Positions 2,338 to 44,959 of a DNA stretch of 49,236 nt are shown one piece after another. Source of the DNA: Eubacteriaceae bacterium (lineage in GTDB: Bacteria; Bacillota; Clostridia; Eubacteriales; Eubacteriaceae); assembly GCA_017405085.1 (NCBI GenBank), contig JAFRBB010000048.1, forward strand, positions 1 through 49,236, read 5' to 3'. The notes under the pieces are model-generated. The model was not told the DNA's origin, ran no database searches, and saw only the letters and a list, made by a program, of their open reading frames with translations. How positions within the stretch are numbered: position 1 is the first letter of the stretch; every line of letters starts with the position of its first letter. The translations under genes and the position numbers were made by a program.

Positions 2338-3276
2338 ATGGAAAATCATTTCGAACAAATACAACAATTACTCAGAGATAAAGCTGATTTTCAAGCAAGG
2401 TTAAAACTCATCGCTTATGACGGCACACCGGAAATCAAAGAGATCAGCGGTCAAAAATACCTTTATGTCAGAAAACGAGTCGGCAGCAGATTAACATCAA
2501 CTTACGTCGATATTTATTCCGATGAACTCTATCAGTTTCTGCTTCGCAGCAACAGAGAAGCGAAAACTTTGCGAAAAAACATTCGACAGACGGACAAACG
2601 TCTTGCCGAACTCGGGTTTTCATCGGGAGAACTGCCCGAACGCGTGGTTCTCAATCTTGATTTTGCCAGAGCGAATATGAAAGCCAATATTTATTCGCAA
2701 GCTGTATTGGAAGGCGTCGCGACATCCTTCCCGCAAACCGAGGAAATTATAGAAAACGGAAAAGTAAACGGTGTGACCGCTTCCGACGTACAAAAAATAC
2801 TCAACCTCAAACATGCCTGGGAATTTATACTCGATCCCGATGTCATTCAAAGCGAAAGCAACTATCATATTCTTTGCCATATCGCGAAACTCGTTAACGA
2901 AGGATTTTTCAGTGATGGCGGCAGAATACGAGGGATCCCCATGACAATCGGCGGTTCAAGTTATGTTCCTCCATTGCCGATTGAAACAGTTGTTATGGAA
3001 AACATCGATAACATGGTCAAAAAAAACATTTCCCCCATCGATAATGCCATCGCCTTATGTCTTTATACGATGAAAACACAGGTTTTTACCGACGGGAACA
3101 AGCGGTCAGCGGTCATCTTCGCCAATCATTATCTCATATCAAAAGGAGAAGGCTTTATTGCCATTCCCGAAGATGATGTGCCGGAATTTAAAAAGCTGCT
3201 GGTTGCCTATTATGAGAATAGAGATCAAGGCGAGATTGAAACATTCATGAAATCAAAGTGTTGGAAAAACTTCTGA
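2338..3276 (+). CDS. Fic-family protein with Gln in place of the catalytic His
   Basis: A protein of 312 residues. The core motif at residues 248-256 reads QVFTDGNKR; canonical Fic enzymes have HPFx(D/E)GN(G/K)R, so the general-base His is Gln248 (codon CAG at 3079-3081) while Phe, Asp, Gly-Asn and Arg are kept. An N-terminal segment ending in LEGV (about residues 120-127) resembles the inhibitory helix of autoinhibited Fic proteins, but lacks a Ser/Thr at the expected position. The first 100 residues are helical and charged. Known Fic enzymes AMPylate or otherwise modify target proteins; without His this one may be inactive, alter its chemistry, or act as a nucleotide-binding regulator. The ATG follows AAGGAG. 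The gene is AT-rich compared with its neighbours, suggesting acquisition. Confidence 0.8.
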   Translation: MENHFEQIQQLLRDKADFQARLKLIAYDGTPEIKEISGQKYLYVRKRVGSRLTSTYVDIYSDELYQFLLRSNREAKTLRKNIRQTDKRLAELGFSSGELPERVVLNLDFARANMKANIYSQAVLEGVATSFPQTEEIIENGKVNGVTASDVQKILNLKHAWEFILDPDVIQSESNYHILCHIAKLVNEGFFSDGGRIRGIPMTIGGSSYVPPLPIETVVMENIDNMVKKNISPIDNAIALCLYTMKTQVFTDGNKRSAVIFANHYLISKGEGFIAIPEDDVPEFKKLLVAYYENRDQGEIETFMKSKCWKNF

Positions 3277-7041: not shown

Positions 7042-8241
7042 ATGAAATTCGGTCGAAAACGTCAAGAACCCAAACCGGCCACCGAACCGAAAACTGATGT
7101 GAGCGCTGCCGCGGAAACGGCAGTCGACGACAATCAGTACATCGAGGGCTACTACGGCGACGAAAAAGCCATGGCCGCCAAAAAGAAAAAAATCAATCAG
7201 GCCAAGCTCAACAACACCGAAGTCGCCACCTTCTGCAGCCAGATGGCCATGGTCGTCAAATCCGGGATTCCCACCGTGGAGGGCATCCACATCATGATGG
7301 GCGACGCGGGCAAGCTCGGCAATCACGGCAGAGCCATCCTGGAGGTCATCGAAGATGCCTTGGACGGCGGTCTGGCCTTCTCCGACGCCCTGGAGGAAAC
7401 CACCGTCTTCCCCGACTATGTCACCGAGATGATCCGCCTCGGGGAAAGCGCCGGGAAACTCGACGAAGTCCTCGATTCCCTCACCGTTTACTACAGCCGC
7501 GAAGAAGCCATCGCCAAAGGCGTCAAAGCCGCCGTCACCTATCCGATGATCATGATCGGGATGATGATGGTCATCGTCCTGGTGCTGATGGTCAAGGTCA
7601 TGCCGATGTTCAACGAGGTCTTCTCGATGCTCGGCGCCGAAATGACCGGCTTCTCCCTGGCCATCTTAAACGCCGGCAACATCATCAGCCGCTACGCCGT
7701 GGTCTTTGTCGTGCTCCTTGCCGTCATCCTGGCCATCGTGCTCTATCTGGCCAAAACCGAAAACGGCCGCAAAAAATTCTCGGAGTTCGCGTCCAAATTT
7801 GTCCTCACCAGAGGCATCAACTTAAAAATCGCCCTCGGCCGCTTCGCCAACGGGCTGTCCATGACCCTCACCTCGGGGCTCGACCCCACCCAGTGTCTGG
7901 AGCTTGTCGACGCCCTGACCGAACACCCTGTCGTCAAAGAAAAAATCAAAGAGGTCCAGGCCGACATGGAAAAAGGCGTCCCCTTCTCCGAAGCCTTGAT
8001 CAACACCCAGCTCTTCGGCGGCGTCTCCAACAGCATTCTCTCCATCGGCGACAAATCCGGCGCCATGGACGCGGCGATGAACGACATCGCCATTCAATAC
8101 AGCAACGAAGTGGACGAATCCATCGAGCGCATGCTCTCCATTCTGGAGCCGACCCTCGTGGCCATTATTTCTGTCATCGTTGGGCTGATTTTGCTTTCGG
8201 TCATGTTCCCGCTCATCGGCATCATGTCCAACATCGGCTGA
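7042..8241 (+). CDS. pilC: Type IV pilus / type II secretion inner-membrane platform protein (PilC/GspF family)
   Basis: A protein of 399 residues. Two copies of the GspF domain are visible: one beginning around residue 63 (VATFCSQMAMVVKSGIP) and one around residue 268 (LGRFANGLSMTLTSGLD). Hydrophobic segments follow at about 170-195, 220-245 and 370-395, the normal PilC topology. In other systems this protein is the membrane platform on which PilB and PilT ATPases act to add or remove pilin subunits. The N-terminal 60 residues are charged and Lys-rich, in the cytoplasm. It is the first gene of a six-gene operon ending with the PilT-type ATPase. AAAGGAGAG precedes the start. The 241 bp upstream hold no gene and no clear promoter. 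Confidence 0.9.
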   Translation: MKFGRKRQEPKPATEPKTDVSAAAETAVDDNQYIEGYYGDEKAMAAKKKKINQAKLNNTEVATFCSQMAMVVKSGIPTVEGIHIMMGDAGKLGNHGRAILEVIEDALDGGLAFSDALEETTVFPDYVTEMIRLGESAGKLDEVLDSLTVYYSREEAIAKGVKAAVTYPMIMIGMMMVIVLVLMVKVMPMFNEVFSMLGAEMTGFSLAILNAGNIISRYAVVFVVLLAVILAIVLYLAKTENGRKKFSEFASKFVLTRGINLKIALGRFANGLSMTLTSGLDPTQCLELVDALTEHPVVKEKIKEVQADMEKGVPFSEALINTQLFGGVSNSILSIGDKSGAMDAAMNDIAIQYSNEVDESIERMLSILEPTLVAIISVIVGLILLSVMFPLIGIMSNIG

Positions 8242-8254
8242 CAGGAGGAACACT

Positions 8255-8584
8255 ATGAAAAATCGATTCGGCGAAAAAGAAAAAGGACAGGGCGGCTTGG
8301 TCATTTCCGTCGTGATTTTCGTCTTGATTCTCGCCGTGTTTATCTACGGCATCAACGACGTCTCCGCCAAATCCGAATCGGAAAGCATCAAACAGCTCAA
8401 CACGGCGGTGCGCCACGCGGTGGTGCATTGCTATGCCGAGGAAGGCCAGTATCCGCCGAACATCGCCTACCTCGAGCAGCATTACGGACTGCAATACGAT
8501 CACAGCAAATACATCATTGACTACCAGTCCTTCGCGACCAACGTCATGCCCGAAATCAGCGTGATCCGAATAGGAGGCTCCTAA
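8255..8584 (+). CDS. Small pilin-like membrane protein
   Basis: A protein of 109 residues with one hydrophobic helix at about residues 14-35, preceded by the charged stretch MKNRFGEKEKGQGG. The Gly-Gln-Gly-Gly before the helix could serve as a prepilin peptidase site, but the usual Phe-Thr-Leu-Ile-Glu after it is absent (LVISVV is seen). The part CYAEEGQYPPNIAYLEQHYG resembles the YYAENGKYP pattern of type IV pilins just after their N-terminal helix, so it may be a divergent major or minor pilin. It has a strong AGGAGG site and overlaps the next gene by TAATG. The function is an inference from position and this pattern. Confidence 0.7.
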   Translation: MKNRFGEKEKGQGGLVISVVIFVLILAVFIYGINDVSAKSESESIKQLNTAVRHAVVHCYAEEGQYPPNIAYLEQHYGLQYDHSKYIIDYQSFATNVMPEISVIRIGGS

Positions 8585-9084
8585 TGAATTTTAAAGGCTC
8601 TCAGAATCATCTGACCGATTTCATTTTCGTTCTGGGGCTCTTCGTCGTGTTCGCGGGCTCCATCTTTGCCTCCGTCATCATCGGCATCACCGTCTATCAG
8701 GAGACCATCGACAACCTCAACGGTCAATACACCAGTCGGACAGCCACGACCTATGTGGTTCAAAAAATCCGACAAAACAACCGGGACGGCAGCGTGACCC
8801 TCGGCCAGATCGGCGGACAGCCCGCCATCGTCATCAAAGGCGAATCCGAAGGCATCGGCACCACCACCTATCTCTACGGCTATGAAAAGAAGCTCATCGA
8901 GCTCTATGTCAAAGACGGAGCCTACGCCATGCCGGGTCAGGGCCAAACCATCACCGATATCCAATCCTTTGAACCCGCCGACAGCGGCGGCGGCCTCATC
9001 GAACTCAACATCACAGACAGCAAAGGACACAAAGAGGTGACTTATCTGCATCTCTGCCCGAAAGCGGAAGGGGGGAGTTCATGA
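8584..9084 (+). CDS. DUF4860-like pilus-operon membrane protein
   Basis: A protein of 166 residues with an N-terminal hydrophobic helix (about 11-37, DFIFVLGLFVVFAGSIFASV) and a beta-rich extracytoplasmic part. I recognise it as resembling the DUF4860 family that accompanies PilC/PilT genes in Clostridia. No prepilin cleavage motif is obvious. TYVVQKIRQNN and the later YGYEKKLIELYV recall minor pseudopilins, which sense or prime pilus assembly. It overlaps the preceding gene (TAATG) and the following gene (ATGA), so the four small genes are translated as a chain. Exact role unknown. Confidence 0.7.
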   Translation: MNFKGSQNHLTDFIFVLGLFVVFAGSIFASVIIGITVYQETIDNLNGQYTSRTATTYVVQKIRQNNRDGSVTLGQIGGQPAIVIKGESEGIGTTTYLYGYEKKLIELYVKDGAYAMPGQGQTITDIQSFEPADSGGGLIELNITDSKGHKEVTYLHLCPKAEGGSS

Positions 9085-9524
9085 AAGCACCCAAGCACAA
9101 GCATTCCCGATACAGCCTCATCCTGATGGAGCTGATGGCGGCCATTCTGTTTTTCTCTCTGGCCTCCGCCGTCTGCATCCAGCTCTTCGCCAAGGCGCAT
9201 ATCATGAGCCGTGACGCCAGCATGGAATCCTCGGCGGTCATCCACGTGCAAACCGTGGCCGAGCTCATGCTTGCCGACGGGGCTCACATTTCGGATAACC
9301 TCAAAGCTCATTATCCCCAAATGAGCGTCAAAGACAACACCAGATCCATCTATTTTAACAAAGACTGGGATGAATGCGCCGAAAAGGACGCCGCCTACCG
9401 CCTCGATATCGCCGAGAGCGACAAAAGCGGCATCAAAAAAGAAGCGATGAGCATGAACTATATCGCCGGAAATGCCGAACTATACAAACTCGACGTGGAC
9501 ATTCACGTTCCCAACCGGAGGTAG
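9081..9524 (+). CDS. Pseudopilin-like membrane protein
   Basis: A protein of 147 residues. After a Lys/His-rich N-terminus comes SLILMELMAAILFFSLAS: the Glu at the fifth position or so of a long hydrophobic helix is the hallmark of type IV pilins and pseudopilins (normally F-T-L-I-E). The Gly before the cleavage point is missing (Tyr-Ser is seen), so processing by the A24 peptidase is uncertain. The remaining 110 residues are soluble and end in a beta-rich portion. It lies inside the pilus-like operon with an ATGA overlap upstream and GGAGG after it for the next gene. A minor pilin role is likely. Confidence 0.7.
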   Translation: MKAPKHKHSRYSLILMELMAAILFFSLASAVCIQLFAKAHIMSRDASMESSAVIHVQTVAELMLADGAHISDNLKAHYPQMSVKDNTRSIYFNKDWDECAEKDAAYRLDIAESDKSGIKKEAMSMNYIAGNAELYKLDVDIHVPNRR

Positions 9525-9527
9525 CCC

Positions 9528-9977
9528 ATGGAAAGAAACGCCAGCAATTTTACCTTCATCAGCAGCGGACCGTCATTTCTTCTGACCATTTTCGGCGTCC
9601 TGGCCCTGGTGACCTTCGCCGCGCTGTCTTTGGTATCCGCCAACACCAACACCAGACTGGTGGAAACCTCCAAGACCAACACCACGGCCTACTACACCGC
9701 CTGCAACACCGCCGCCGAACGCATCGCGGCGCTGGACAATGCCTTGACGGCCTCCGGCGGCAATTTGGCCGCCGCTGCCCTGCCTGCCGATTGGACGGTG
9801 TCCGGCGGCAAAGCCACCACCAAAATTCCCATTAACGAATACGAAGAGCTGCAAGTGGACGCGGCGCCCCGCACCGGCGGCGACAGCTATTACACCATCA
9901 CCAGATGGCAGACCGTCATCACCCGTCAATGGCAAAACGACAGCAGCTTTACCCTTTTCAACCCCAAAACCAAATAA
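9528..9977 (+). CDS. Membrane-anchored pilus-operon protein of unknown family
   Basis: A protein of 149 residues with a hydrophobic segment at about residues 15-38 (PSFLLTIFGVLALVTFAALS) and a Thr/Ala-rich extracytoplasmic domain. I do not recognise a family. The helix followed by VSANTNTRLVETSKTN resembles the minor components of type IV pili that lack a cleavage site. It has a GGAGG site 6 bp before the ATG and lies 3 bp from the previous gene and 23 bp from the PilT gene. It probably belongs to the same machine. Confidence 0.65.
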   Translation: MERNASNFTFISSGPSFLLTIFGVLALVTFAALSLVSANTNTRLVETSKTNTTAYYTACNTAAERIAALDNALTASGGNLAAAALPADWTVSGGKATTKIPINEYEELQVDAAPRTGGDSYYTITRWQTVITRQWQNDSSFTLFNPKTK

Positions 9978-10000
9978 CCAAAAGGAGCGATAAATCGTCT

Positions 10001-11080
10001 ATGGATATCAAACAACTACTCACCCACGCAACGGATGCCGGCGCATCGGATGTCTTCCTGTGCACGGGTCTTCCGCTCACCTACAAAATCAACGGCCAAC
10101 TGGTGCCCGCCTCCAAAAAACCCTTAAAACCCGCGGACGCCGAACACTTTGTGCGTGAGATCTACGGTCTGTGCAAAGACCGTACCTACGAAGAATATGC
10201 CGAACGCGGCGACGATGATTTCTCCTTTGCCATTCCCGGTGTCTCCCGCTATCGTGCCTGCACCTACAAGCAGCGCGGCACCGACGCCGCCGTCATCCGC
10301 CTGATCTCCTTCGGTCTGCCCGATCCCAAAGAGATGGGCATTCCCGATACCATTCTCAATCTCGCCAATCTGCACAAGGGCATGATTCTGGTCACCGGCC
10401 CCGCCGGCAGCGGAAAATCCACCACCATGGCCTGCATGATCGACCGCATCAACGAAACCCGCAACAGCCACATCATCACCCTAGAAGATCCGCTGGAACA
10501 ACTGCATCATCACAAAAAAAGCATCGTGAGCCAGCGTGAAGTCGGCACCGACACCAAAGACTACGTCACGGCGCTGCGGGCGGCCCTTCGTCAAAGCCCC
10601 GACGTCATTCTCCTCGGGGAAATGCGCGACTACGAAACCATCAGCGTGGCCATGACCGCCGCCGAAACCGGTCATCTCATCTTCTCCACCATGCACTCCA
10701 TGACCGCCGCCGATACCATCGACCGCGTCATCGACGCCTTCCCGCCGGCGCAGCAAAAGCAAATTGCCGTGCAGCTGTCCATGTGTCTCGGCGCCATCAT
10801 CTCCCAACAGCTTTTGCCCGCCGCCGACGGCACCCATCAGGTTCCGGCCTTCGAACTGCTCACCGTTAATCCGGCGCTTCGCAACATGATCCGCGAAAAC
10901 AAAACCCACCAGATCAGCGGTCAGGTCTACTCCTCCAACCGTCCGGATCTGTTCTCCATGGACACCTATCTGTTCAACCTTGTCAAAGACGGCATCATTA
11001 CCGTCAAGACGGGCTACAACCACGCGACCAATCAGGTCATGTTCCAAAAGAAACTGGCCAACGCCGGCATCAAAATCTGA
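10001..11080 (+). CDS. pilT: PilT-type retraction ATPase
   Basis: A protein of 359 residues. The start at 10001 is chosen because AAAGGAGCG lies upstream and the N-terminus MDIKQLL begins the standard PilT N-domain. The Walker A motif is GPAGSGKST (about residue 130), followed by the Asp box ITLEDPLE, Walker B DVILLGEMRD and the His box GHLIFSTMHS. The late motif NPALRNMIRENKTHQI is the PilT signature, which separates it from PilB. In known systems PilT powers pilus retraction and twitching or DNA uptake. No PilB is in this operon or window, so extension must be driven from elsewhere or the single ATPase does both. A terminator follows. Confidence 0.92.
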   Translation: MDIKQLLTHATDAGASDVFLCTGLPLTYKINGQLVPASKKPLKPADAEHFVREIYGLCKDRTYEEYAERGDDDFSFAIPGVSRYRACTYKQRGTDAAVIRLISFGLPDPKEMGIPDTILNLANLHKGMILVTGPAGSGKSTTMACMIDRINETRNSHIITLEDPLEQLHHHKKSIVSQREVGTDTKDYVTALRAALRQSPDVILLGEMRDYETISVAMTAAETGHLIFSTMHSMTAADTIDRVIDAFPPAQQKQIAVQLSMCLGAIISQQLLPAADGTHQVPAFELLTVNPALRNMIRENKTHQISGQVYSSNRPDLFSMDTYLFNLVKDGIITVKTGYNHATNQVMFQKKLANAGIKI

Positions 11081-11132: not shown

Positions 11133-11213
11133 CTATACAGCTTTCGCGGCTAAACGGCTATTTTAAAAATTGACCATTCAAACACAAGCCCCTCACGGAT
11201 GAAAGGACGAAAA

Positions 11214-12089
11214 ATGCCTGAAAAAATTTCAATTCGGTTTTTCGATGATCGTGAAGTCCGCGCGGTCTGGGATGATGAAAACAGCAGATGGTTGTTTTCT
11301 GTCATCGATATCGTCGCTGTGCTTCGAAATGAAGATGATTATCAAAAAGCAAGAAACTACTGGAAATACCTCAAAGCAAAGCTAAAAAAAGAAGGCAACC
11401 AACTGGGTAGTGACACTACCCAGTTGAAGCTGCTCGCGCCGGACGGAAAAAGGCGCTTAACGAATGTCATGAGCTATGATCAAATTATCGCTCTCGCCAA
11501 AGAATTTCCGTCAAAACAAGCCAATCGTTTTATTGAATGGTTCACCTATAGTGATGAAACCATTGATGGGAAAAGCAAAACAAAAGCTTACGAACTGTGG
11601 GAAAGCTCTTTTATGGACAGCATAGAAGTTGGGACAGTCAAAGGATTAAAACAAATTCACGGTTATCTTTTCGGCGGATTATACGATTTTGCGGGACAAA
11701 TACGAACAAAGAATATTGCCAAAGGCGGGTTTCAATTCGCAATGGCACAATATTTGGATCGTTCCCTTACCATCATTGAAAAAATGCCGGAGAACAGTTT
11801 TGAACAAATCGTAGACAAATATATTGAAATGAATGTCGCCCATCCTTTTATGGAAGGTAACGGCCGCTCTACACGCATTTGGCTGAATATGATGTTAAAA
11901 AAACGTCTTGGCCTTTGTGTCGATTGGAGCAAGATCAATAAAAGGGACTATCTTGACAGCATGAAAAAAAGCGTTGCCGACGGCACGAATATCAAAAATC
12001 TGCTCAAAGGCGCGTTGACAGATAAGATAGATGATCGGGAAATATTTATGAAAGGAATTGACTATTCATATTATTATGAAGAAAATTGA
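11214..12089 (+). CDS. BRO-N domain / Fic domain fusion protein
   Basis: A protein of 291 residues. The start at 11214 is preferred to the ATG at 11199 because AAAGGA lies just before it. Residues 1-115 match the BRO-N type of phage antirepressor domain (IRFFDDREVRAVWDDE, SVIDIVAVL, LLAPDGKRRLTNV). Residues about 125-270 are a Fic domain with the intact motif HPFMEGNGRSTR at 210-221, so AMP transfer from ATP to a target is chemically possible. The C-terminal SYYYEE resembles the (S/T)xxxE(G/N) inhibitory motif of autoinhibited Fic proteins, with E in place of G/N. A DNA-binding module joined to a modifying enzyme suggests a phage- or stress-linked toxin or regulator. It is AT-rich and stands next to decayed toxin-antitoxin genes. 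Confidence 0.88.
   Translation: MPEKISIRFFDDREVRAVWDDENSRWLFSVIDIVAVLRNEDDYQKARNYWKYLKAKLKKEGNQLGSDTTQLKLLAPDGKRRLTNVMSYDQIIALAKEFPSKQANRFIEWFTYSDETIDGKSKTKAYELWESSFMDSIEVGTVKGLKQIHGYLFGGLYDFAGQIRTKNIAKGGFQFAMAQYLDRSLTIIEKMPENSFEQIVDKYIEMNVAHPFMEGNGRSTRIWLNMMLKKRLGLCVDWSKINKRDYLDSMKKSVADGTNIKNLLKGALTDKIDDREIFMKGIDYSYYYEEN
11400..11426. repeat. Perfect 13-bp inverted repeat inside the BRO-N/Fic gene
   Basis: CAACTGGGTAGTG and CACTACCCAGTTG flank a single A, a perfect 27-bp palindrome in coding DNA. It encodes Gln-Leu-Gly-Ser-Asp-Thr-Thr-Gln-Leu of the BRO-N domain. It could be a binding site for the protein itself or an mRNA hairpin. Confidence 0.85.
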
Positions 12090-39596: not shown

Positions 39597-40090
39597 CACT
39601 TTTTGCGTCTTTCCTGGGGTCATTCCTTCAAAAGGACAAAAGAAAAATGAGATGCCTGAAAAAATCTTTATTTTTTTATTCAACAAATTTAACAAAGGTG
39701 TTTAATATTCGACATTTTCCAAAAAAATGCATTGTTATATGGCCTGGATTTTTCGAAAAACGCCTTAAGATAAAAGCTTATTTAAAGGTTTGTCCTTTAG
39801 GATAATGGCGAGAGAGTTATCTCCCCTTTTTCTTTTCATTCCTAATTATACCAAAGGCATCCTCCCCGGATGCCTTTGGTATTTTTTGTTTTCTCTGTCT
39901 CAAATTAATTCTCACCAAAAGCTCTTTTGACAAACAAAATCCCGGGATTAAATCCTTTTCGCCCTTTTGGCACAAAAATATAAAAAAAGGTTAAATTATA
40001 GACTTTTGTTTACGGGTAAAACGTGTTAAGATAATTTTGTTTGTAAAAGAAAATGACAACAATCGCAAAGTGATAAACGGGAGGAATACG
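39597..40090. other. Divergent intergenic region with a possible small RNA
   Basis: No protein gene is visible. On the plus strand a strong terminator (ACCAAAGGCATCC / GGATGCCTTTGGT, then six T; about 39848-39887) ends nothing that is coded. Upstream are AAAGG-TTTGT-CCTTT and GGATAA-loop-TTATCTCC (39796-39831), with a purine-rich loop. A short untranslated RNA of about 130-150 nt is possible. Farther right, TTTACG (40009) and TAATTT (40032) form a plausible promoter for the gene at 40091. Confidence 0.4.
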
Positions 40091-41650
40091 ATGCCTTACG
40101 GAAAACAACGGGACTTCGCGGGTCCCACCCTAAATGATTTTGAAACCAAAGCAACCCCCGAGGAAAAACGCCTGTGGGAGGATTTCTTAAAAGACTATCC
40201 GGAACATTTTCAACGCAGCGCCATGGCTGATGTCGATCACTTCTTGTTTGTGTGTCCCTCCGCCAATCTGGCCGTCGATCTTGAAAAATTCCGCAAATTC
40301 TCCGATACCGCCGGCGGCGTCTCCGGGAAAAAAGGCGACGCCCTCCGGGAAATGGGCTTGTCTCTCAAATCCTTCACCAATCGGGAACTCAACACAGACT
40401 TTGACGCGGTTTGTGCCGCCATCGACCGCGCTGTCAAACGCGGCTTAGACAACAAAAGCCTGGTTGAAATCAAACGCGCCCCCCGCCTGCCTCTGGAAGA
40501 CGACGAAGGCGTCACCATCGGCAAGGGCTGGAAAATGACCGTCTCCGGCGAATACAAAAACGACGAACCCGTCGGTTATTCCCCCGCCCGGGAAAGCGTT
40601 CAAAGCTACGGCGGCAATTCCGGCGTCGTCAATCCTTTGGATGACAACGCCGACGAAGGATACAGCTACACACGTTTCAACAAACGCTTTGTTGACAGCG
40701 ATCTGCCCAACGGCAACTGGCAGCGCCAAAGTCAGGGAAGTGAGGCCGACGTCGAAAAAAAAAAGATGACTGACGCCCCCGCTGATGACGTCTCCGCTAA
40801 CGACAAAGACGGCGTGCCATTTTCCGGCGGCAGCATCCCCGACATTCCGGCGCCGGAGCTCGCTCCCCGCGAAAGCTACATGGCTGCCGGTGAAACCTAC
40901 GATCCCAAATCGGCGGCGGAAATCATGGCCGAAGCCGAAGCGAAAGCCGCGGTTAATGCTGCGGATGACGCTCCCGTTCCAACCGGAGAGCCGGCTGAAA
41001 CATCAGAGGCCGAAAACATCTGCGGCCAATCCACCGAAGCCAAACCCAAAATCAATCCCGCGGTGTTAGCCGCCGAAGAGCCCCTCAATCATCCCGAACG
41101 GGTGCCGAAGGGCAGCTTCGCCAACACAACGGAAGGCAAACATTTATTCATTGCCGATAGTGCCGATATCGTCGGAGATGTCCATTTGGGAGACGATGTG
41201 AGCGTCTGGTACCAGGCCGTTGTCAGAGCCGATCAAGCGCCCATTTGCATCGGCGACGGCTCCAACGTCCAGGACGGCACCATCATGCACGTCAGCGAGG
41301 GTTATCCCACCATCATCGGCAATCACGTCACCATCGGCCACAACTGCACCATTCACGGCTGCACCATCGACGATGATGTCTTAATCGGCATGGGCACCGT
41401 CGTGTTAAACGGCGCCCATATCCCGAACAATTGCATTATCGGCGCCAAATCTTTGGTCACCCAAAATAAAACCTTCCCCGAAGGCAAACTCATCATGGGA
41501 TCCCCGGCCAAGGTTGTGCGGGATCTGACTCCCGAAGAAATCGCCGGCATCCGGGAAAACGCCGACGAATACGTGCGCCTCATGGACAACAACCCGGGAA
41601 AAGGCTTTTTCGAAACCGATGACGGCGTCATTATCGTCAGAGACAAATAA
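40091..41650 (+). CDS. Fusion of a decayed DUF559-like domain with a gamma-carbonic anhydrase domain
   Basis: A protein of 519 residues. Residues about 15-125 follow the DUF559 (Vsr-like nuclease) pattern: ATPEEKRLWEDFLKDYPEHF, then DHFLFVCPSANLAVDLEKF and ALREMGLSLKSFTNRELNTD. The usual VDFYC...IELDG acidic residues are replaced (FLFVC, VDLEK), so nuclease activity is not expected. A disordered acidic/Ala-rich linker runs from about 150 to 345. Residues about 355-500 form a left-handed beta-helix with hexapeptide repeats and the three zinc-ligand His of gamma-carbonic anhydrases (TIMHV, TIGHNC, TIHGC). GGGAGG precedes the ATG. The anhydrase part looks functional. Confidence 0.85.
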   Translation: MPYGKQRDFAGPTLNDFETKATPEEKRLWEDFLKDYPEHFQRSAMADVDHFLFVCPSANLAVDLEKFRKFSDTAGGVSGKKGDALREMGLSLKSFTNRELNTDFDAVCAAIDRAVKRGLDNKSLVEIKRAPRLPLEDDEGVTIGKGWKMTVSGEYKNDEPVGYSPARESVQSYGGNSGVVNPLDDNADEGYSYTRFNKRFVDSDLPNGNWQRQSQGSEADVEKKKMTDAPADDVSANDKDGVPFSGGSIPDIPAPELAPRESYMAAGETYDPKSAAEIMAEAEAKAAVNAADDAPVPTGEPAETSEAENICGQSTEAKPKINPAVLAAEEPLNHPERVPKGSFANTTEGKHLFIADSADIVGDVHLGDDVSVWYQAVVRADQAPICIGDGSNVQDGTIMHVSEGYPTIIGNHVTIGHNCTIHGCTIDDDVLIGMGTVVLNGAHIPNNCIIGAKSLVTQNKTFPEGKLIMGSPAKVVRDLTPEEIAGIRENADEYVRLMDNNPGKGFFETDDGVIIVRDK

Positions 41651-41691: not shown

Positions 41692-41725
41692 AAACAGGAG
41701 GTTTGACAAAGCCTCCTGTTTTTTA
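41692..41725 (+). terminator. Terminator of the fusion-protein gene
   Basis: AAACAGGAGG and CCTCCTGTTTTTT pair around TTTGACAAAG, 42 bp after the stop. Confidence 0.88.
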
Positions 41726-41795
41726 TGAAACAACCATTCGAACCGCGGTCCGCAGCATCGTCCCGGACCAAATAGAATCATACGCCGGAGAGCCC

Positions 41796-42443
41796 ATGCA
41801 TTTAAGACCCAAACCCTGGATGAAACCCGAACTTGACAAAAGCCCTGTTTATTTGAGAGATCCTTTTCGTTTTCGCGGCCGTTGGCACGACCAATTTGAA
41901 GATCCTGCCCGACCTTTTTATATTGAACTCGGATGCGGAAAAGGGGATTTTATCTCCGCCTCGGCCGAAGCGCATCCCGACGCCAATTTCCTCGGCGTCG
42001 ACATGATCGACACCGTTCTCGCCCACGCCAACCGCAAAGTGCTGCGGGACAACCGCGCCAAAACCCACGTGCGCCTCACCGCTTATGACATCACCCGCTT
42101 CACCGATGTTTTCTCCCCCGAAGACATTGCCGACGGACTTTTTATCAACTTCGCCAATCCCTGGCCCAAAAGGCAGCATCACAAACGACGCCTGACCCAT
42201 CCGAGACAGCTCGAAAACTACAAAAGCGTCTTAAAACCCGGAGGTTTTATCCGATTTAAAACCGATGATGACGCCTTTTTTGAGGATTCCCTTGACTATT
42301 TCGACTCCTGCGGCTTTGAAACAGTCCGCCTTAGCCGCGACGCGCGAAACGAAGGCCTCGACATCGGCCCCGAAACTGAACATGAGCGCATGTTTTTCGC
42401 CCGAGGAATTCCCATCAAATATGTCGAGGTGACAAAAAAATAA
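41796..42443 (+). CDS. trmB: tRNA (guanine-N7-)-methyltransferase
   Basis: A protein of 215 residues that methylates G46 of tRNA with S-adenosylmethionine. FYIELGCGKGDFI is the SAM-binding motif; NFANPWPKRQHHKRRL is the family signature (normally NFSDPWPK, here FANPWPK), and TDDDAFFEDSL follows. The start at 41796 is preferred because GGAG lies 5 bp upstream and the family N-terminus is MHLRxKPW; the upstream frame overlaps the previous terminator. Confidence 0.95.
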   Translation: MHLRPKPWMKPELDKSPVYLRDPFRFRGRWHDQFEDPARPFYIELGCGKGDFISASAEAHPDANFLGVDMIDTVLAHANRKVLRDNRAKTHVRLTAYDITRFTDVFSPEDIADGLFINFANPWPKRQHHKRRLTHPRQLENYKSVLKPGGFIRFKTDDDAFFEDSLDYFDSCGFETVRLSRDARNEGLDIGPETEHERMFFARGIPIKYVEVTKK

Positions 42444-42497: not shown

Positions 42498-42526
42498 GCC
42501 GGAGCATTCGCTCCGGCATTTGTTTT
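42498..42526. terminator. Terminator between trmB and the esterase gene
   Basis: GCCGGAGC and GCTCCGGC pair around ATTC, followed by ATTTGTTTT; it lies between two convergent genes. Confidence 0.85.
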
Positions 42527-42553: not shown

Positions 42554-44959
42554 TTATTTATCTTGTTGTTGTGGGTTGGCTTTCTTTTTTTTAATGATGA
42601 CGGCGATGATAATTCCCAATACAATCACGCCGCACACCCCTCCGATGATGAGATAAATCGTCGTATTGTCGGCAAACAGGGGTTCCAATTCCGACGCGTT
42701 TTCCTCAAAAGCTTCCAAAACATATTTGTCCCAATGCCTTGCGTCTTTTGTCGCGCTGCCGAATACGTAATCCTCTTGCCCATAATCGATCACATCAAAT
42801 CCTGGAATGGCTTTGCTTGCGCCTTCAACGCGGTAGGCTGCCGCGTTTGCCAAGCCAAAAGAGACCTTGCCATTGGTATATTTGACCCATGAACTGATAT
42901 CTTTACCGCTCGCGGAGCTTTCGGTTCCGTTTTTCGTCTGCTTCGTCGGGCCCGCTTTCGTGATTGCTTTTGCGCCGTTGACATATTTGCCATACATCTG
43001 GTCGACATACAAGCTAAAAGAATCGCCCAAAATTTCCGACGGCACATGTCCGCCGTTCCATTGCCAGTCAATGATCGCGTCCGTTCCGTTGGCCAGCCAT
43101 TTGGCCTGCATATTTAACGACGAAAACATCGACATATCCCCTTCGGAAGCGCCCATTAAAATTCTTGTCCAGGTTGGCGCTTTTGTCGTTTTCGCGCCGA
43201 TGTATTGGAGCGGATCATATAAACCGACGATATTTTTTCCGTATTGATCCCCCGCGTATATTTCATCAATATCTTCTTTATAGGCCTGAACCATTGCTTT
43301 AAAGGTTCGATAATTTGATGAATTTTTGGAACCGGATGCGGATTGGGTTGTGCCTTGATCCGGAGTTCCGACTTTTTCCGATCCATTCCCGTTTGTGCCG
43401 TCGGATTTGGATTCTCCGGAGCCGCCTTGGCCATCTTTCATATCACTCGGTGGATTTCCGCTGGGCTTTTCACCGGCATTTGAATCACTCGAACCACCCG
43501 GGCCGCCTTGGCCATTTTGCATATCGCTTGGCGGATTTCCGCTGGGTTTTTCGCCTGAACCGGAATCACTCGAGCCTCCGGGACCGCCTTGTGCATCTCC
43601 CGATGGTGCTCCGCCCATGGTGCCTTTTTTTGCGGATGTCGCGTATCTTCCTTCGATAAAGGCTTTGGCTTTATCTGATTGGCTCATATTGGCCACATCA
43701 CTGTCTGACAAAGCGTTTCCGTTCGCGTCAAACCATGTGAAATTATCGCCGTAATCTAAATTATCAATGTACCATTGCAAATCAGACACAAATTCCGCCA
43801 AATAGAAGTCCAAATAGGTTCCGCCATACCCATTTGTGTCCGGGTATTTGTTTTGATCGTATTCGATGCTGAGTTTGATGGTGTCGGTTTTGTTGCCGTT
43901 GCCGTTGATATCCAAATCGACATCCGACTCTTTGACAGATAAATTTTGGTCATTAATATAAGTCATATATTTTTGGGCCAATTTTTCCGCCAATTTCTTT
44001 TGAAAATCCGTGTTAAAAGAATAATCTTTGTCCAAATAATATTCAAAGGCCATTGCCATATCCGCTGAGTACAGCGGCGTGATCGCGCTATAGGCCATAC
44101 ATCCCCATACACCGTCATCGATCTCACGGTTTGTTCCGTTAATCGTGACCATTGTCGAGTAGGATCCGTCCGTGTTTTGATAAACGCCAACCGCTCCGGC
44201 TTCAATTTCATAATCATAAAAATCCTGATGATTGGATGTGGCCGCGAGCATCGCCGCATGGGCACCGCCGCCGGAGCCGCCGGTTGACACAAAATAATCA
44301 ACGCTGCCGAGAATGTTTCCCAATAATATATTATATTTGACGAATCTTACCGCGTTCTTTTGATCAACCAAACAGCAAGGCGCATCTCCTGTGTAATAGG
44401 TGTTGCCGTCAGCGTCTTTCGCTGTATCCTGTTTCCCTCTATTGCCGCACGCGACATTGATATATCCCTCTTTCGCGTAAGTCGTCGATGCAGTAGAATT
44501 GCTTGAATTGCCGTATCCCGCCGCACCGGTGTTGATGATAACGGGACAGGATGCCGCCGTGTAGACTTGGCCGTTTGTGCTTGTAACGAACCCTGATGGA
44601 TTGGCAATCATATTGCCGTTGACCGCTTGACTGAAATTCGCTGCTGTCACATCCGCTGTTCCATCTCTGTTTGTATCAATGCCCGCGACATAAGCTCCGG
44701 GAACACATACCGAAACGCCTTGTTCGTCTTCTATGACCGGTTTGACAACCGATGTCACAATCGACATAACCCATGCGTCAGAGTTCGAATCATACGACCA
44801 CGTAAATTTATTATTATTTGCTAGGTTCAAACTTTTTTCAATATTGGCTTTTGTTTCCGCCGAAGTAGCATCGCTTTTCGCGTACACCGGATTGTTCACC
44901 AACAAAAGACTTAACAGCAATGTAAAAATAATCGCTGATACAGTTAGTTTTTGTTTCAT
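42554..44959 (-). CDS. Membrane-anchored tannase-like alpha/beta-hydrolase
   Basis: A secreted protein of 801 residues. The signal peptide ends near VYAKSD. The catalytic region resembles bacterial tannases and feruloyl esterases: GNRGKQDTAKDADGNTYYTG, then CCLVDQKNAVRFVKYN, the nucleophile loop STGGSGGGAHAAM (Ser229), and a late GGHVPSEILGDS with the probable catalytic His. Between them (about 445-545) is a Gly/Ser/Pro low-complexity stretch with a 27-residue tandem repeat around EKPSGNPPSDM. A C-terminal helix and KKKKANPQQQDK anchor it in the membrane, facing outward. It may release gallate or similar acids from plant esters; substrate not certain. Its MarR regulator is upstream. Confidence 0.82.
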   Translation of the reverse strand: MKQKLTVSAIIFTLLLSLLLVNNPVYAKSDATSAETKANIEKSLNLANNNKFTWSYDSNSDAWVMSIVTSVVKPVIEDEQGVSVCVPGAYVAGIDTNRDGTADVTAANFSQAVNGNMIANPSGFVTSTNGQVYTAASCPVIINTGAAGYGNSSNSTASTTYAKEGYINVACGNRGKQDTAKDADGNTYYTGDAPCCLVDQKNAVRFVKYNILLGNILGSVDYFVSTGGSGGGAHAAMLAATSNHQDFYDYEIEAGAVGVYQNTDGSYSTMVTINGTNREIDDGVWGCMAYSAITPLYSADMAMAFEYYLDKDYSFNTDFQKKLAEKLAQKYMTYINDQNLSVKESDVDLDINGNGNKTDTIKLSIEYDQNKYPDTNGYGGTYLDFYLAEFVSDLQWYIDNLDYGDNFTWFDANGNALSDSDVANMSQSDKAKAFIEGRYATSAKKGTMGGAPSGDAQGGPGGSSDSGSGEKPSGNPPSDMQNGQGGPGGSSDSNAGEKPSGNPPSDMKDGQGGSGESKSDGTNGNGSEKVGTPDQGTTQSASGSKNSSNYRTFKAMVQAYKEDIDEIYAGDQYGKNIVGLYDPLQYIGAKTTKAPTWTRILMGASEGDMSMFSSLNMQAKWLANGTDAIIDWQWNGGHVPSEILGDSFSLYVDQMYGKYVNGAKAITKAGPTKQTKNGTESSASGKDISSWVKYTNGKVSFGLANAAAYRVEGASKAIPGFDVIDYGQEDYVFGSATKDARHWDKYVLEAFEENASELEPLFADNTTIYLIIGGVCGVIVLGIIIAVIIKKKKANPQQQDK

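Follow-up and report, generated by a model that had tools for sequence, protein, structure and literature searches.

Background

Carbonic anhydrases (CA) interconvert carbon dioxide and bicarbonate, and those of the gamma class are trimers. In CcmM, a gamma-CA-like trimer organises its partners via repurposed small-subunit-like modules carried on flexible linkers (PMC8580825). Likewise, the Vsr fold, whose active site includes Asp51 and His69, has been put to another use in FASTKD4, where a Vsr-like domain is repurposed as an adapter and does not cleave (PMC11879112). A gamma-CA candidate of C. autoethanogenum, with all three metal-binding histidines present, had no CA activity (PMC6690855); activity is therefore not to be taken for granted from the presence of the ligands.

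The locus described here joins a domain of the DUF559 family to a gamma-CA. Both families are known; what is new is their combination, together with the loss of a nuclease centre under continued selection. The initial annotation knew of no such pairing, and in the literature searched, which covered few subscription papers, DUF559 and carbonic anhydrase are not reported together.

Gene and domain layout

The window, that is, the whole stretch of 49,236 nucleotides analysed (contig JAFRBB010000048.1 of a Eubacteriaceae bacterium, assembly GCA_017405085.1), holds a reading frame running from the ATG at 40091 to the end of the stop codon at 41650. That it encodes a DUF559-like domain fused to a gamma-CA, as first read from the DNA letters, is confirmed by the frame, by its domains and by homologous fusions. 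The features are as follows.

40080..40084, + strand: Shine-Dalgarno-like GGAGG, 6 nt 5' of the ATG (read from the sequence)
40091..41650, + strand: coding sequence, 519 aa; DUF559-derived domain, linker and gamma-carbonic anhydrase (frame and homologous fusions)
40091..40468, + strand: residues 1-126, degenerate DUF559 (Vsr-like PD-(D/E)XK) domain (Pfam and relatives' profiles)
40244..40246, + strand: codon of Leu52, replacing the canonical VDF Asp (alignment with the canonical set)
40277..40297, + strand: residues 63-69, DLEKFRK, replacing canonical ELDGSQH (alignment)
40457..40561, + strand: residues 123-157, conserved tail SLVEIK..LPLEDDE..GWKMTVSGEYK (alignment)
40562..41140, + strand: residues 158-350, low-complexity linker, predicted disordered with pLDDT < 50 (structure model)
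40604..40618, + strand: residues 172-176, SYGGN, single copy of a linker motif (alignment)
40661..40687, + strand: residues 191-199, YSYTRFNKR, conserved linker motif (alignment)
41141..41590, + strand: residues 351-500, gamma-class carbonic anhydrase, left-handed beta-helix and C-terminal helix (profiles and model)
41288..41290, + strand: His400, metal ligand, invariant in nine fusions
41339..41341, + strand: His417, metal ligand, invariant in nine fusions
41354..41356, + strand: His422, metal ligand, invariant in nine fusions
41703..42443, + strand: trmB, tRNA (guanosine-46-N7)-methyltransferase, 52 nt 3' of the fused gene

A terminator-like hairpin follows trmB (42498-42517), so that the fused gene and trmB probably form one transcript.

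The N-terminal domain

Residues 19-115 of the window protein match Pfam DUF559 (PF04480) below threshold (E=0.0023; 18.2 bits against a cut-off of 20.6), and a PF04480 profile search of the window's genome gave no match. The assignment to DUF559, already made in the initial annotation, becomes firm at the level of sequence profiles once the relatives are included, the domain being a divergent member of this Vsr-like PD-(D/E)XK family. PF04480 is the sole Pfam family matched by the 13 relatives within the Eubacteriaceae, and all 13 match it (best E=5.8e-7); a profile built from these relatives picks up canonical DUF559-type proteins from further clostridial families, with E-values as low as 4e-22; and a profile-profile comparison with 21 canonical DUF559-type proteins gives E=9e-28 over 113 columns, a value that is not fully independent because the same profile picked the 21 proteins. 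The signatures TxxEkxLW, FxC..A and F.gVC..I are common to both sets. The AlphaFold model of the domain has little confidence (mean pLDDT 44.9, from an alignment of only 8-9 sequences), with a predicted element order a-b-b-b-a-b-a; searched with Foldseek, it ranks 3r3p (I-Bth0305I) first (E=0.057) and 3hrl third (E=0.2), neither of which is significant. A sequence search for solved structures related to the domain found none.

The canonical proteins conserve, at 90-100%, Gln43, the Asp of the VDF motif, ELDG, the His of QH and a D..R pair. The VDF Asp, in the second core strand, is present in 21/21 of them and in none of the 13 relatives, which have Leu or Met instead. Likewise, Gln43 is replaced by Ser and the Gly of ELDG by Lys in every relative, the Asp at position 78 is absent from all 13, and His69 is variable, so that of the marks of an active DUF559/Vsr-like centre (VDF Asp, ELDG, His) the Asp and the Gly are found in 0/13 and the His in 6/13. 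The acidic active site, which had been described as lost, has thus given up its VDF Asp throughout but keeps some acidic residues: the relatives retain the Glu of ELD (as Asp in the window), and the Asp that follows is Glu in 12/13. Set against the roles of Asp51 and His69 in Vsr, these losses make a working Vsr-type centre unlikely, and the residues point to a cutting centre that has decayed.

The E. limosum group has the tail that follows (residues 123-157) in its stand-alone proteins too, and the tail therefore belongs to the N-terminal module.

The linker

The long disordered linker of the first description stands in so far as residues 158-350 are predicted to be mostly disordered; it is no plain spacer, however, for it carries conserved motifs. 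A TYGGN-type motif comes first, then YSYTRFNKR and GNW. TYGGN, or a close form, occurs once in the window and in groups g8 and g9, and in 4-5 copies, with a period of 51-57 nt, in the genomes of Pseudoramibacter type; in one of these (L039:9393-9651) the linker repeat TYGGNAGITDSLG is present in five copies, as against one in the window. The stand-alone relative L035 ends in YSYKRFNRR, and a motif of the YSYTRFNKR type therefore goes with the N-terminal module. Elsewhere in the proteins of these genomes, a search for the linker motifs gave no convincing match.

The carbonic anhydrase domain

Residues 351-500 match the NCBIfam model NF050158 (E=1.5e-46; 158.2 bits), below its equivalog cut-off of 250; since the free-standing gamma-CA of the E. 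limosum group (175.4 bits) likewise falls below it, the low score owes more to the narrowness of the model than to the domain. The same residues match a solved gamma-CA (PDB 9qev) at E=9.7e-46, the Pfam Hexapep repeat is matched at E=7e-16, and the domain is modelled as a left-handed beta-helix with pLDDT of about 75-91. As had been supposed, the metal site is complete: His400, His417 and His422, which by motif I take to be the equivalents of Cam His81, His117 and His122, are all present and invariant in 9/9 fusions, and so are R379, D381, N392, Q394 and D395.

Distribution, phylogeny and selection

The N-terminal domain occurs in 14 of the 40 Eubacteriaceae genomes, fused in nine and as a separate gene in five. 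The fused genomes are that of the window, E. barkeri, E. aggregans, five of Pseudoramibacter type, which include Pseudoramibacter alactolyticus and P. porci, and one MAG genus; they make up four genera of one clade and comprise isolates as well as MAGs, so that the fusion is no artefact and, contrary to what would have overturned the initial annotation, is not confined to a single assembly. In the five genomes of the E. limosum/callanderi genus (g5), the module is encoded on its own, as a protein of about 155-175 residues that has the same tail, and the CA is encoded elsewhere. Groups g2, g3 (presumably Acetobacterium-type genomes), g6 and g7 have a free-standing gamma-CA and are without the N-terminal domain. 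In the class and phylum samples (391 and 398 genomes) no fusion was found outside the Eubacteriaceae; these genomes hold only short DUF559-type ORFs (<=204 aa), none of which is joined to a hexapeptide domain. A second, divergent stand-alone gamma-CA-like gene (38% identity) accompanies the fusion in E. barkeri (G015:C34:7470-7907; also L125).

The IleRS tree unites the fused genomes in a single clade (support 100/99), which fits one fusion event, and all eight placed genomes of this clade (g1, g8, g9 and g4) carry the fusion, none having lost the N-terminal domain. In a small CA tree, g6 and g7, which are without the module, fall among the fused genomes with modest support, and a later loss is accordingly possible. 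The N-domain tree places the stand-alone forms beside E. barkeri and E. aggregans (92/95; long root branch).

Both domains are under purifying selection. By pairwise Nei-Gojobori counts, in which distant pairs are near saturation, dN/dS between E. barkeri and E. aggregans is about 0.04 for the N-terminal domain and 0.02 for the CA, and between P. porci and G024 it is 0.09 and 0.10, respectively. More distant pairs give 0.12 for the N-terminal domain, the CA ranges over 0.02-0.16 and the stand-alone module over 0.03-0.07, whilst the linker is less constrained, at 0.10-0.31 (in one very close pair the changes are too few to judge). Values are far below 1 in the tail as well as in the N-terminal domain; the decayed nuclease is, therefore, a kept part of the protein.

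Gene neighbourhood and metabolic setting

A search for beta-CA came up empty in the g5 genomes and in all but one of the nine fused genomes; judged from this search, the fused protein appears to be the main carbonic anhydrase of its carriers. In g1, g4 and g8 the fused gene and pyrB are divergently arranged; in g9 a butyryl-CoA:acetate CoA-transferase lies directly upstream, with an acyl-CoA dehydrogenase/Etf operon a few kb further up, and the E. barkeri fused gene is likewise a few kb from an operon of this kind. The context thus differs between genera and points to no consistent pathway. The free gamma-CA gene of the E. limosum group (L037:9598-10134) comes immediately downstream of an acyl-CoA dehydrogenase/Etf operon, right after etfA. 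A TIGR04002-like membrane gene adjoins the free CA in g3 and g5 (by eye) and the fused gene in g8, and on the strength of this common neighbour the fused gene probably sits at the ancestral CA locus.

Three partnerships that the surroundings might bring to mind fare poorly. Bicarbonate supply to pyrimidine synthesis is weak, for the fused gene has no divergent pyrB beside it in g9, unlike in g1, g4 and g8, and g5 has its free CA elsewhere. A link to pyruvate phosphate dikinase is a lead only: the stand-alone module lies 67-69 nt 3' of ppdK, after the gene for the ppdK regulator, in four g5 genomes (L031:9564-10034, L032, L033 and L034), and the fifth, L035, has the module without a ppdK neighbour. 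As for microcompartment cargo, bacterial microcompartment (BMC) genes are present in 37 of the 40 family genomes, almost everywhere, and so do not track the fusion; none adjoins it, none was met among the genes read beside the fusions, and in the window's genome the BMC matches among those listed are on contig C37, the window being C26.

Other neighbours may be recorded here. In genomes of Pseudoramibacter type, a protein of ~720 aa is encoded directly 3' of the fused gene (L039:10621-12786; L042:10524-12683); that of L039 has a partial-length match to the anti-phage sirtuin Dsr2 (E 2e-16), far below the model cut-off. The window also encodes two proteins with the Fic-type motifs FTDGNKRS and HPFMEGNGRS (2338-3276 and 11199-12089; by eye), genes that look like those for a type IV pilus or for secretion, with PilC-like and PilT-like members (7042-11080; by eye), and, on the minus strand, a protein of 801 aa whose N-terminus is signal-like and which has a membrane segment at the C-terminal end and repeats of low complexity of the type GGPGGSSDS..GEKPSGNPPSDM (42554-44959).

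Proposed role and alternatives

The reading that I prefer, and to which I give an even chance of being right, is that of a gamma-class CA with a built-in docking arm, a non-cutting DUF559 fold serving as a binding module on a flexible, motif-bearing linker. The Vsr-like domain would have lost its cutting centre and been retained as a non-catalytic binding module, joined to the CA by a flexible linker with 1-5 aromatic TYGGN motifs and YSYTRFNKR. Gamma-CAs being trimers, each particle would present three pseudo-nuclease heads and multivalent linkers, and these may tether or cluster a presumably active CA at a partner, probably a protein, or at an assembly, so as to balance CO2 and bicarbonate locally. 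The data suggest, in other words, that an old nuclease has been reused as a handle that places the CA in the cell. The initial annotation had likewise held that the decayed nuclease could be a tether to nucleic acid or protein, and its interpretation of the locus is supported, the tether itself being a proposal.

Of the alternatives, the most serious, unlikely though it is, holds that the pseudo-nuclease still binds nucleic acid, and either anchors the CA at DNA or RNA, be it the nucleoid, the ribosome or mRNA, or couples the state of CO2 and bicarbonate to a transcript. The ancestral DUF559 family acts on DNA, the Vsr-like domain of FASTKD4 is a non-cutting RNA binder (PMC11879112), Lys34, Arg42 and Lys66 are present in 13/13 relatives, and in the window trmB lies downstream of the fused gene. 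Yet trmB was not seen beside other fusions among the neighbourhoods read, and the canonical conserved residues Gln43, Lys/Arg44, His69 and Arg94 are replaced in the relatives; moreover, the core of the domain is acidic to neutral in 13/13 (net charge -6 to 0, pI 4.9-7.0), which counts weakly against a nucleic-acid tether since the charge of canonical DUF559 proteins also ranges widely. For the docking arm, the same charge leans weakly towards a protein as the partner.

It is rather improbable that the whole protein is a structural organiser, with a gamma-CA-like C-terminal scaffold that has no CA activity. Gln382, the residue after the RxD motif, presumably stands where Cam has Glu62, as would suit such a scaffold. 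Inactive gamma-CA homologues exist (PMC6690855), and the gamma-CA-like domains of CcmM serve oligomerisation (PMC8580825); however, neither the metal ligands nor the active-site R/D/N/Q/D residues vary, and in most fused genomes no beta-CA is found.

A chance joining of genes, with an N-terminal domain functionless in the fused protein, would fit the odd pairing and its confinement to one family, and is nonetheless very improbable in view of the low dN/dS of domain and tail, of 35 residues invariant across fused and stand-alone forms, and of the lack of any loss of the domain within the IleRS clade. Scarcely credible, finally, is a nuclease with a rearranged active site: the acidic pair 63/65 is mostly kept, with the invariant Lys66 adjacent, but all 13 relatives have Leu or Met for the near-invariant catalytic Asp, and the residues at the His, Asp and Arg positions have not been conserved.

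Carried further, the docking arm leads to a more speculative and improbable picture, in which a decayed nuclease of the restriction or repair type would be an addressing module dedicated to CO2/bicarbonate metabolism and the linker repeats would control valency in a shell-less CA assembly of the Eubacteriaceae, with the module acting in trans in the E. limosum group; if true, this would be something like a carboxysome matrix without the carboxysome. Should the N-terminal domain be an addressing module, a nuclease fold would have been reused to place a CO2 enzyme, and the domain would offer a bait for tracing the purpose of carbonic anhydrase in acetogens and in butyrate-forming bacteria. Relatives in which the parts are fused or separate, or in which the module is absent, provide a natural experiment.

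Comparison with known systems

With the DUF559/Vsr-like PD-(D/E)XK nucleases (PF04480; Vsr, I-Bth0305I, 3HRL), the N-terminal domain shares homology over its full length and, in the low-confidence model, the order of elements; it differs from them in the replaced catalytic Asp, in ELDGSQH having become ELEKF, in the added conserved C-terminal tail and in the fusion to an enzyme of CO2 metabolism. The C-terminal part agrees with the gamma-class CAs (Cam/CamH; NF050158) in the left-handed beta-helix, the three metal histidines and the RxD and NxQD motifs, but is preceded by a 350-residue extension with a pseudo-nuclease.

FASTKD4, with its RAP domain, offers a precedent for a Vsr-like fold that works as an adapter without cleavage, although FASTKD4 is mitochondrial, binds RNA and has a positively charged cavity, whereas the domain here is acidic to neutral. 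Compared with CcmM of beta-carboxysomes, there is no carboxysome and no adjacent BMC gene, and a pseudo-nuclease at the N-terminus takes the place of Rubisco small-subunit-like domains; Pfam and NCBIfam scans found no such repeats C-terminal to the CA, which is followed by just 19 residues. What the two have in common is a gamma-CA-type domain, here presumed trimeric, a repurposed enzyme module, a flexible linker and multivalency. These published analogues make a docking arm plausible and, by analogy, the fusion resembles CcmM in its logic without being CcmM.
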